Assembly: GCA_021201295.1 (NCBI GenBank)
Contig: JAJQFE010000028.1
Span: forward strand, 1-64,000
DNA from: Tannerellaceae bacterium
GTDB taxonomy: Bacteria; Bacteroidota; Bacteroidia; Bacteroidales; Tannerellaceae
Reading direction: 5' to 3'
Length of the DNA: 64,000 bases
Shown here: positions 31,881 through 36,849 of the stretch, piece after piece
Position numbering within the stretch: the first letter of the stretch is position 1
How the letters are laid out: every line of letters starts with the position of its first letter
Made by a program: the position numbers and the translations under genes
Notes under the pieces: model-generated
Told to the model about the DNA's origin: nothing
Database searches by the model: none
What the model saw: only the letters and a program-made list of their open reading frames with translations

Positions 31881-32372
31881 TTACTTTTCTTTATTTTCTA
31901 TGACGAGATCGGTCATTATTCCTTTGGTTTGTTGAAGCAAATCCTGTGGGGATATGAGGAGTTGTAATCCTCTGACTCCGGCACTGATATAGATTTTGTC
32001 AAAATTTCCGGCTGTGGAATGGAGATAAGTGGGGAACAGTTTTTTCATACCTATGGGTGAACAACCACCCCGGATGTATCCGGTCAACGGTAACAGCTCT
32101 TTCATAGGAATCAGCTGACAATTTTTATTACCGGAGGCTTTCGCTGCTTTTTTCAGGTCTATTTCCTGTGCTCCGGGAATGATACCTACGAAACAGCCGT
32201 TTTTGTCTCCCTGGAGGATCAGAGTTTTAAACACCTGGTCCACCTCTTCTCCCAATTGTTCAGCTACGTGGGTTGCACTCAGATCATTCTCATCTACTTC
32301 ATAGGGGATCAGTTGATAAGGAACGTTTGCTTTGTCCAGTAAACGGGCTGCATTGGTTTTATTTATTTTCAT
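31881..32372 (-). CDS. ybaK: Cys-tRNA(Pro) deacylase, YbaK/EbsC family
   Basis: The enzyme clears cysteine mischarged on tRNA(Pro) in the cytoplasm. The 163-residue chain shows the family pattern: KTNAARLLDKANVPYQ, the catalytic Lys in VFKTLILQG, and GGCSPIGMKK. The start overlaps the tex stop by four bases (ATGA), so both are translated from one message. It is intact. Confidence 0.92.
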   Translation of the reverse strand: MKINKTNAARLLDKANVPYQLIPYEVDENDLSATHVAEQLGEEVDQVFKTLILQGDKNGCFVGIIPGAQEIDLKKAAKASGNKNCQLIPMKELLPLTGYIRGGCSPIGMKKLFPTYLHSTAGNFDKIYISAGVRGLQLLISPQDLLQQTKGIMTDLVIENKEK

Positions 32373-34508
32373 GTATTTAATCCTTTCATGGATAACTGTA
32401 CACGTTTTCTTCCTAAATCCACGCTCAGGACTTTTACTTTTACATGTTGATGGATGGATACCACCTGAGCAGGATCTGTGATGAACCGGTCTGCCAGTTC
32501 GGAAATATGTACCAGGCCGTTCTCTTTAATCCCTATATCTACAAAGCAACCGAAATTAGTGATATTGGTAACTATACCCGGAAGAACTTGTCCTTCTTTC
32601 AGGTCTTCGATGGTTTTTACATCCGGATCGAAAGAAAATACCTGGATGGTCTGGCGGGGATCCCTTCCCGGTTTATCCAGTTCTTCCATAATATCCAGTA
32701 GGGTGGGCATACCTACTGTAGGGGTGATATATTTTTCGAGTTTCAGTTTCTTTTTCAACTCTTTATTTTGGATCAGCTCTTCGACTGAACATTGAAGATC
32801 TTTTGCCATTTGTTCCACGACCGGATAGCTTTCGGGATGTACGGCTGAATTGTCTAACGGATTTTTACCGTTCTGGATACGCAGAAATCCGGCACATTGT
32901 TCAAATGCTTTTTCTCCCATACGGGGTACTTTCAGTAACTCTTTACGGGTTTTGAAAGGGCCGTTTTCTGTCCGGTAGTTGACTATATTCTGTGCCAAAG
33001 CGGGGCCCAGGCCAGAGATATACGTCAACAGATGTTTGCTGGCGGTATTTACATTAACTCCTACCATATTCACACAGCTTTTCACAGTCTGGTCCAGGCT
33101 TTTTTTTGAGTGCGAACTGATCTACATCGTGCTGGTATTGTCCTACTCCAATACTTTTTGGATCAATTTTCACCAGTTCAGCTAACGGGCCTGCCAGGCG
33201 CCTGCCGATACTGATCGCTCCCCGGACAGTGACATCGTACTCCGGAAATTCTTCCCGGGCAATCTTAGAGGCGGAGTAAATAGAGGCTCCGTTTTCACTA
33301 ACTACGAAGACCTGCACTTTCCTATCATAACGGATGTTAGTAATGAACTGTTCTGTTTCGCGGCTGGCGGTTCCGTTTCCGATTGCAATGGCTTTAATGG
33401 CATAGGTGGAAACCAACTGGGCTACTTTACCGGCTGCTTTGGATTTCTCATTTTGTGGGGGATGGGGATAGATCGTTTCATTATGGAGCAAAGTTCCCTG
33501 TGCATCCAGGCACACTAATTTACATCCGGTACGGTAACCGGGATCTACTCCTAAGATCCGCTTTTGCCCTAAAGGTGGAGCTAATAATAGCTGGCGAAGA
33601 TTTTCTGTGAAAACCCGGATGGCCTCTTCATCTGCTTTCCCTTTACTCAGATTGGCAAATTCAGTTTCGATAGAGGGTTTTAATAACCGCTTGAATGAAT
33701 CCTCTATGGCTATGCTAACCTGTCCGGAAGACGGGTTGCGTCCTTTTATAAACCGGCGTTTGAGTCGTTCTATGCAATTTTCTGTGTCAGGGGCAATCGA
33801 AACCCGTAGAATTCCTTCTGCTTCTCCCCGGCGTAGAGCTAATAGCCGGTGGGATGTGCAACGGTTCAATGACTCGCTGAAATCAAAATAATCCCGGTAT
33901 TTTGCTCCCTCTTCCTCTTTCCCTTTGATCACCTTGGATGTGATCACTGCTGTATGGGAAAATGAGTTGCGGACACTGTTCCGTGCCTCTTCGTTTTCGT
34001 TTACCCATTCGGCGATAATATCCCGGGCTCCCTGGAGAGCCTCTTCTGTAGTGGCTACTTCATCATTCAGGAAGGCTTCTGCTTTCAGGTCCGGATGGGC
34101 TTCCTGCTGTAGCATAATTACTTTGGCTAAAGGTTCCAGTCCTTTTTTACGGGCTATTTCTGCTTTAGTGACCCTTTTGGGTTTGTAAGGCAGATAGAGA
34201 TCTTCTATTTCAGTCGTATCCCAGGATTCCTGAATCCGTTTTTTCAATTCCGGTGTCAGTTTTCCCTGCTCTTCGATGGAAGAGAGAATAGTTTCTTTTC
34301 GTTTATGGAGTTCTGTAAATTTGTCTGACAAGTCTTTGATCTGGCTAATTTGGACTTCATCCAGTCCGCCGGTTACTTCTTTCTGGTAGCGACTGATGAA
34401 AGGAATAGTTGCTCCTTCCTGCAAAAGCGTCATGGTTCTTTCCACCTGTCCGGCCGGAATACTCAGTGCTTTTGAAATAAGTGTATGGAATGCTATAGTC
34501 ATGTTCAT
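32369..34508 (-). pseudogene. tex: Tex-like RNA-binding protein, frameshifted
   Basis: Tex is a conserved cytoplasmic nucleic-acid-binding protein of about 710 residues linked to transcription. Here the N-terminal helical part (VTGGLDEVQISQIKDL), the YqgF/RuvC-like domain (ILGVDPGYRTGCKLVCLD), helix-hairpin-helix motifs (LGPALAQNIVNYR) and the C-terminal S1 domain (GIVTNITNFGCFVDIGI) are all present. A run of eight A (eight T on the plus strand, 33100-33107) should be seven; the extra base ends the frame 26 codons later. With seven A the protein reads on through FALKKSLDQTVKSCVN without a break. A homopolymer slip is also a common sequencing error, so this lesion needs checking first. Confidence 0.9.
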
Positions 34509-34904: not shown

Positions 34905-35100
34905 ATTACAAAAAACAGGGTTCAGATTTTATCTGAACCCTTAGAAAACAATTAAATGATGTCATCCCGACACCCTGTAATCCACTTTGTTAACCTTAAA
35001 TCTAATACTATTATGAAAAAATCACAGTATAAAAGTAAGGCTATTTTTAACATCTTCAATAGTTAAAATGCTAAATTGTGTTTTAGAACATGTAAGAAAA
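34905..35100. ncRNA. Candidate small RNA or 17-codon ORF, copy 1
   Basis: The 117 bases at 34984-35100 recur at 36307-36423 with about 15 mismatches and no gaps. On the plus strand they encode a 17-residue peptide (ATG 35013, stop 35064) beginning MKKSQYKSK. On the minus strand the repeat runs into a perfect 10-bp hairpin (34918-34940) followed by TGTTTTTTG, a clear intrinsic terminator. Which strand is functional cannot be decided by eye. The rest of 34509-35340 shows nothing else. Confidence 0.45.
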
Positions 35101-35340
35101 TATAAGGAAATTCTGCTTTTTTATTTATTGGTTCTTCTGTTTTATGGGTTTGATTGGATTTATATTATTTATTATTAGTTAATTAGCTCGAATCATAACC
35201 TTTTTTAGAATGTGAATAAATCTTGCATAAAGGCAAAGGACATGCATCGGTAGGACTTTTTCATTTTCGCATAGGACATACCGGCAGAGATTACAAAAGT
35301 ATTAATTTTAGTTATTCCGGGAAGAATATAATTGGTTGGC

Positions 35341-36255
35341 ATGAGTAAATATAATAATTTTACCTCCTATATAAATCAACCTATGGTATTAACTTCCCTT
35401 GCTGTTGCTCTTAGAATCTTCTCAAATCCGTTAGGAAATGTGTTTCAGAAAACGCTCATTCAGAAGAATAACCATCCCTTAGTAATCAATTTCCTGACTT
35501 TTTTATTATTAAGTATCCTGTGTCTTTTTCCTGCCATTCAGGTGGATTGGTTAAGTTTACCTGCCTCTTTCTGGTATTTTTGTTTACTGGCAGGGCTTAC
35601 AGGAGCCACAGGGAATGGCTTTCTGGTCCGGGCATTAGAAAACGGAGACCTTTCTGTTTTAGGACCCATCAATTCTTATAAGTCTGTGGTTGGAATGATT
35701 GCCGGAATTTTTCTTTTAGGCGAGATCCCGAATATATGGGGAGTGGTTGGAGTGGGTCTTATTATTTACGGGAGTTACTTTGTACTGGATACTATGAAAG
35801 AAAGATTTTCTTTTTCTTTATTCAAGAGAAAAGATATTCAGTATCGCATTTGGGCTATGATTCTGACCGCCATAGAAGCTATTTTTATTAAGAAGATTAT
35901 TTTGTATTCTTCCACTATGGTTTCTTTTATAGTCTGGTGTTGGTTCGGAGCTATTTTTTCTTTTCTGTTATTATGTATTTCCCGGCCATCTTACGGATAT
36001 GCCGTGTATACCTGGGGAAAAGCCGGTATACTGTATTATTTCTTTTTGGTAGTGTGCATCGGAACTATGCAATATACCACTAATTATATCTTTGATCACA
36101 TGGAGGTGGGGTATGCATTAGCCTTATTCCAGTTATCTACTATTGTTAGTATATTATTAGGATACCGGATTTTTAAAGAGACGGATATCCAAAAGAAACT
36201 GGTTGGAGCTTTTATTATGATTATAGGTTCCATCCTCATTATCCTTTTAAAATGA
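35341..36255 (+). CDS. EamA/DMT-type membrane permease
   Basis: A 304-residue protein with about ten hydrophobic segments in two similar halves, typical of the drug/metabolite transporter superfamily. GPINSYKSVVGMIAGIFLLGE in the first half (here GPINSYKSVVGMI then AGIFLLGE) and the closing IFKETDIQKKLVGAFIMIIG are the usual end-of-repeat motifs. The substrate is unknown; small-metabolite export is common in the family. I prefer the ATG at 35341 to the TTG nine bases earlier. The gene stands alone and is bracketed by the two 117-bp direct repeats, which may mean it was gained or moved with them. Confidence 0.8.
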   Translation: MSKYNNFTSYINQPMVLTSLAVALRIFSNPLGNVFQKTLIQKNNHPLVINFLTFLLLSILCLFPAIQVDWLSLPASFWYFCLLAGLTGATGNGFLVRALENGDLSVLGPINSYKSVVGMIAGIFLLGEIPNIWGVVGVGLIIYGSYFVLDTMKERFSFSLFKRKDIQYRIWAMILTAIEAIFIKKIILYSSTMVSFIVWCWFGAIFSFLLLCISRPSYGYAVYTWGKAGILYYFFLVVCIGTMQYTTNYIFDHMEVGYALALFQLSTIVSILLGYRIFKETDIQKKLVGAFIMIIGSILIILLK

Positions 36256-36261
36256 TCTTTA

Positions 36262-36423
36262 GGAATATAAAAAAATTAGGGAGTGTTTCCCAACATCCCC
36301 TAACTAACTTTGTTAACCTTAAATCTAATACTATTATGAAAAAACCACAATACAAAGGTAGGGGAATTTTTAACTTTGTCAATAGATAAAATGCTAAATT
36401 ATGTTTTAAAGCATATAAGAAAA
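36262..36423. ncRNA. Candidate small RNA or 17-codon ORF, copy 2
   Basis: This is the second copy of the 117-bp repeat (36307-36423). Its plus-strand ORF (ATG 36336, stop 36387) also has exactly 17 codons, beginning MKKPQYKGR. On the minus strand the repeat contains ATTG and TACCTTTG spaced like a Bacteroides promoter. Downstream on that strand TTAGGG pairs with CCCTAA and is followed by seven T (near 36270). A minus-strand transcript of roughly 75-80 bases fits these signals. Confidence 0.45.
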
Positions 36424-36849
36424 GCTAAAACGAGTGGAAATTATTCTTATAAGCCGGGTAGGGAACTCAAAAGTTAATCATAGGACACTAATTCAGATCT
36501 CAAAGATAAAAAAAGATAAAAAGGAAACGTATAAATTGGGCTTATTATATCTACCAGTTTTCAGAATAGAAAAATTATTTTTACTGTGAGTTCTCTAAAA
36601 CAATTTGATCAGCCTGTTGGTATTATATATGTAGTCTTATCCAAATCTCATCAAATTTGTTTTTCTTTGTAAAAAATTTAAGTCACGTGAATCGTAATCA
36701 GGAACAGAGAAATACCACTTATAAGATCACCGCATCGAATGAGGAGTATCAGATTATATCATCCATATTTAAAAGATCACTGGTTCCGGACTTCTTTTAC
36801 TTTTTAAGATATCATTTTAACTATGAAATTTTATCTATTATATATTAAT

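Follow-up and report, generated by a model that had tools for sequence, protein, structure and literature searches.

The two direct repeats on either side of an EamA transporter gene in the window, by which we mean the whole 64,000-nucleotide stretch of Tannerellaceae DNA analysed here, are best read as adding two members, in the form of a lineage variant, to an already known small RNA family. We put the probability at about 0.92 that both repeats are minus-strand genes for FopS-family sRNAs acting on susC-type translation starts. The repeats occupy 34984-35100 (copy 1) and 36307-36423 (copy 2), align without a gap over 117 bp with an identity of 102/117 (87%), and contain an identical core of 38 nt (34984-35021/36307-36344); a wider similarity of 83% covers 141 nt (34965-35105/36288-36428). 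An earlier note on this DNA had described gapless 117-bp repeats with the same first 38 bases, flanking the EamA gene in the same orientation, and the coordinates, the identity count, the 38-nt run and the position of the EamA gene between the copies (35332-36255, plus strand; PF00892, E 9.5e-18) all bear this description out. Its proposal of a small functional unit, either RNA or peptide, holds for the RNA, for which a promoter, a seed, a terminator and a curated Rfam family are found, and fails for the micro-peptide, the length of whose reading frame is not kept.

In Bacteroides thetaiotaomicron, FopS is a set of 14 sRNA paralogues that have sigma-ABfr promoters, carry their seed (R1′) in a single-stranded 5′ part and end in a Rho-independent terminator; they bind the translation start regions of susC-like mRNAs, leading to repression, and are antagonised by the RRM protein RbpB (PMC11697453). 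The window copies have in common with them the seed GUAUUAGAUUUAAGGUUAA, the single-stranded 5′ part, the 3′ terminator hairpin, the sigma-ABfr promoter, several paralogues per genome and complementarity to susC starts. They differ from them in carrying 2 + 3 extra nucleotides in the 5′ part (GUGguUUUUUCAuaaUAG), and copy 1 also has a second terminator; the region upstream of the promoter is unlike that of the classic copies of the same genome. Against the Rfam model RF04319 (BTncRNA_FopS; gathering cutoff 56 bits), the minus strand of copy 2 scores 58.0 bits (36348-36266) and that of copy 1 scores 55.1 bits (35025-34942), 0.9 below the cutoff, while other homologues with the longer seed mostly score 56-63 bits, with a few at 50-54. 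With R1, a covariance model of this long-seed variant, the scores rise to 106 bits for copy 2 (gene at 36266-36348, with a predicted transcript from ~36348 to 36270) and 94.4 bits for copy 1 (gene at 34905-35025, including the second, downstream terminator). Four places in the genome match the window-type variant at 93-106 bits with R1, and classic FopS members are present as well, so that this is a multi-copy family. GibS (RF04182; PMC11697453, PMC7366714) resembles the window copies in its R1 seed region and resembles copy 1 in a layout with a second, terminal hairpin, but membership was rejected, since the RF04182 scores of 38.8 (copy 1) and 26.4 bits lie far below the cutoff of 115. That such units fall outside normal annotation, as the earlier note supposed, is consistent with the FopS copies of Parabacteroides distasonis, which carry no RNA feature in a gene table that has no RNA genes at all.

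The promoter-like boxes noticed earlier on the minus strand of copy 2 turn out to have the −33/−7 spacing of the Bacteroides primary sigma factor, with TTG at 36382-36380, a 19-nt spacer and TACCTTTG at 36360-36353 (promoter 36353-36382). Copy 1 has the corresponding TTG at 35059-35057, again a 19-nt spacer, and TACTTTTA at 35037-35030 (promoter 35030-35059), the last base (G) of this −7 box being off consensus. Among 40 homologues from the same genome and its relatives, TAnnTTTG is found in 37, a TTG 19-20 nt away in 38, and both elements in 36. Downstream lies a 42-nt seed, the same in both copies (in copy 2, GUGGUUUUUUCAUAAUAGUAUUAGAUUUAAGGUUAACAAAGU at 36307-36348, minus strand), which is near-invariant in 28 aligned homologues and pairs with susC start regions; from the Rfam alignment and RNA folds, the R1′ seed lies within a single-stranded 5′ region in both window copies, as in FopS. 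Promoter, seed and terminator are the only parts conserved in the homologues.

The fold of the 3′ end argues for a product of the minus strand. Copy 2 has an intrinsic terminator at 36269-36303, identified by folding and by covariation, in which a stem of 12 positions leads into U7. On the minus strand, 96.4% of this stem is paired in the 28-homologue alignment, as against 35-56% in slid controls; three pairs have changed on both sides, and none of 500 shuffles reached the observed covariation score, so that the covariance test suggested in the earlier note comes out in favour of the minus-strand RNA. Because many of the paired cells in the alignment are G-U, which read as C-A on the plus strand, the structured product is the minus-strand RNA. 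The folding energy of the sRNA body does not exceed that of shuffled sequences (z −0.55 and −0.20), and support for the FopS hairpin thus comes from covariation and not from energy. In copy 1, the FopS hairpin is weakened (ACAGGGUGUC/GACAUCAUUU) and is followed by a second, strong terminator at 34910-34941 on the minus strand (hairpin 34917-34941, then U6; −16.6 kcal/mol, z −6.0), a match to which can be read in the orthologue of the congeneric genome G003. The minus-strand terminators with a T run noted earlier are therefore present in both copies, the strong hairpin of copy 1 being the second.

These features of copy 1 leave some room for regarding it as a decaying pseudo-sRNA, with copy 2 alone active. 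The off-consensus −7 box (TACTTTTA), the weak first hairpin and the below-cutoff score of 55.1 bits all point that way; against them, the 38-nt seed core is intact, the strong second terminator has been kept and is present in the G003 orthologue too, and the orthologues are 90% identical. We consider decay of copy 1 a real but rather doubtful possibility. By analogy with B. thetaiotaomicron, both window copies may well be transcribed and act as regulators in the present organism.

If both FopS genes work as their B. thetaiotaomicron counterparts do, a primary sigma factor of the Bacteroides type would start transcription at ~36348 in copy 2 and at ~35025 in copy 1, giving an RNA of ~80 nt per gene, probably ~115 nt for copy 1; for the variant carried by P. 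distasonis, the predicted long-seed RNA is likewise ~80 nt, with the 5′ end GUGGUUUUUU. The unfolded first 40 nt would be antisense to a typical susC-type translation start (TTAACCTTAAAUC...AUGAAAAA), and the 3′ hairpin with its U-run would serve as the terminator. Pairing of the RNA over the start codons of such mRNAs, chiefly those of SusC-like glycan transporters, would block ribosome entry. Repression of the targets at the level of translation and antagonism by an RbpB-like RRM protein would follow the B. thetaiotaomicron case; RRM_1 genes, one of them encoding 83 aa, are present in the genome.

The complementarity to susC-like start regions, a defining property of FopS, can be computed. 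Over 24 susC starts of the same genome (TIGR04056), the seed gives a mean duplex energy of −16.9 kcal/mol, compared with −13.4 kcal/mol (s.d. 0.68) for shuffled seeds, and 0/200 dinucleotide-shuffled seeds were as low as the real one; for each gene, whichever in-frame ATG gave the best value counted as the start codon, the same rule being applied to shuffled seeds. Sites over the start include C7:26932 (L053, −24.0) and C20:13005 (L039, −23.1). For 41 control ORFs from the window, the mean was −12.8 against −11.6 kcal/mol for shuffled seeds, with 8/200 shuffles as low. Since these ORFs lean slightly in the same direction, part of the susC complementarity reflects how start regions in Bacteroidales are composed in general. 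No perfect seed match occurs in the susC leaders of the genome, and a search of the same genome for the exact 26-nt seed complement (⩽3 mismatches) returned the FopS genes themselves and no target site.

The plus strand of each repeat does contain a 17-codon ORF, as noted earlier: MKKSQYKSKAIFNIFNS at 35013-35066 in copy 1 and MKKPQYKGRGIFNFVNR at 36336-36389 in copy 2, the starts lying at 35013 and 36336. Conservation of a 17-residue micro-peptide (MKKPQYKxx...) could seem plausible from the presence of ATGAAAAAA in 38/40 homologues, with an apparent MKKPxxKDT start. Yet the residues held in common are the complement of the sRNA seed and of the −7 box, with none kept beyond, and in both window copies the stop codon falls just past the complement of the −33 element. 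Among those of the 40 collected homologues that have the ORF, its length varies from 9 to 35 codons. The codon-substitution test proposed in the earlier note yields 2 synonymous and 7 non-synonymous changes among the nine changed codons between the window copies, and the substitutions fall 4, 2 and 5 by codon position, with no excess at the third. The G-U pairs of the terminator, too, place the function on the opposite strand. With its length varying and its substitutions so distributed, we reject the micro-peptide as highly improbable, and judge both ORFs to be by-products of the seed and promoter in reverse reading.

Comparison with the congener G003 clarifies the history of the FopS gene pair. 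This genome has two FopS copies in the same order and at orthologous positions, aligning to window positions 34910-35113 (89.8%) and 36260-36451 (88.1%), whereas paralogues reach only 82-84%. As orthologues are closer than paralogues, the duplication predates the divergence of the two species, and the tandem pair is an old one. No EamA gene lies between the copies in G003, and its presence between them in the window most likely arose afterwards in the present lineage, possibly as a gain by transfer. The only relatives of this EamA protein found in the genome collection were a Flavihumibacter protein (64%) and a protein on a contig labelled Thalassovita (62%).

The same synteny bears on the idea of a single functional cassette, in which the two sRNAs would regulate the transporter that they bracket. 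The copies do lie in the same orientation on either side of EamA, but the orthologous sRNA genes of G003 stand without it, the nearest EamA relatives (Flavihumibacter and the contig labelled Thalassovita) lack such an RNA in ~3-5 kb of flank per side, and FopS homologues elsewhere adjoin unrelated genes. We have accordingly discarded this arrangement, whose likelihood is very slight, and the bracketing that had been taken as meaningful is incidental. A view of the repeats as mobile or REP-like DNA that transposition has multiplied and that has no regulatory role is just as hard to credit, for although they are multi-copy, often form same-strand clusters and have a classic FopS-like counterpart in Bacteroides phage BX-TP2, no transposase ORF lies beside the window copies, conservation is limited to promoter, seed and terminator, and the positions are orthologous in G003.

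The phage stretch itself (PQ571285.1, L173 962-1009) is an unannotated FopS-like seed near the end of an induced phage genome and a weak match of the classic type; no exact 36-nt match to the long-seed variant was found in viral contigs. Several observations concern the neighbourhood of the FopS pair. In G003 it adjoins a gene for type III pantothenate kinase (coaX), of which a 63-codon remnant is left at 36657-36848 of the window; PF03309 has no match in the whole of the present genome, which is 98.6% complete. In P. distasonis (Tannerellaceae), the long-seed RNA adjoins an ABC substrate-binding gene resembling a neighbour in G003. On the other side, the tex gene (32369-34508, minus strand) is split near 33054-33085 into two overlapping frames, one ORF holding the Tex N-terminal, central and YqgF domains and the other the helix-hairpin-helix and S1 domains, owing to a frameshift, an assembly error or recoding.

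The repeats are no chance likeness, for a DNA search found homologues in 28/41 genomes. In the family and order surveys with R1, the long-seed variant was detected in 75 of the 79 genomes sampled from its own bacterial family, in all 16 genera covered and with 1-9 copies each. In 78 near-complete genomes, one for each other family of the order, R1 scores were ⩽62 bits and none reached full strength, four of them having weaker matches at the level of classic FopS. The variant is not strictly confined to one family, since G035, an incomplete genome from another family (f12), carries it too. A full-length match in Parabacteroides indicates that the family sampled by the 79 genomes is probably the Tannerellaceae. 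Long-seed genes arranged as same-strand pairs or clusters, ~0.2-3 kb apart, recur in many genomes of the family (G007:C5:817055-820489, G019:C112, G015:C1:1443395, G111:C14:22, G001:C82:36443, G130, G141 and G147). Other types were also seen. Classic FopS copies (L006, L007, L095 and L104), unlike long-seed ones, have a palindrome-like ATGTTGCATAACAT or a variant of it upstream in place of the TTG element, and the two kinds are possibly under different control. A third FopS-like type, GAGTTTTTTTCATAGTATTTTAGATCTAAGGTTAAC, with its own hairpin region (L015 near 1514, plus strand; L100 1735-1820 and L101 2252-2328, minus strand), scores no more than 32-40 bits with the long-seed model.

The consensus long seed and the classic seed were compared on 30 susC starts from the long-seed genome G015, on 24 from the present genome and on 24 from four genomes whose matches are all of classic level. 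The long seed gave z-scores of −7.7 in G015 and −6.7 in the present genome, against −6.5 and −4.7 for the classic seed, while the order was reversed in the classic-level-only genomes (long −4.2, classic −8.4). The long-minus-classic difference separates the two kinds of genome on susC (Mann-Whitney p = 0.0013, a statistic that ignores relatedness) and fails to do so on control ORFs (p = 0.49). These few genomes, with kinship ignored, are suggestive of a matched evolution of seeds and susC starts. We tentatively propose, at somewhat less than even odds, that a family-wide FopS branch with a seed 5 nt longer has co-evolved with the susC starts of its family, fitting them better than the classic seed does, as the classic seed fits the susC genes of classic-only genomes.

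Taken together, FopS, which work on Bacteroides had described as restraining the translation of glycan transporters globally, now extends as a distinct long-seed variant through a further family, apparently including Parabacteroides, and a class of apparent MKK micro-ORFs in Bacteroidales is explained as sRNA genes read in reverse. Long-seed FopS offers a natural experiment in how an sRNA with many copies is kept in step with the dozens of start sites that it targets.
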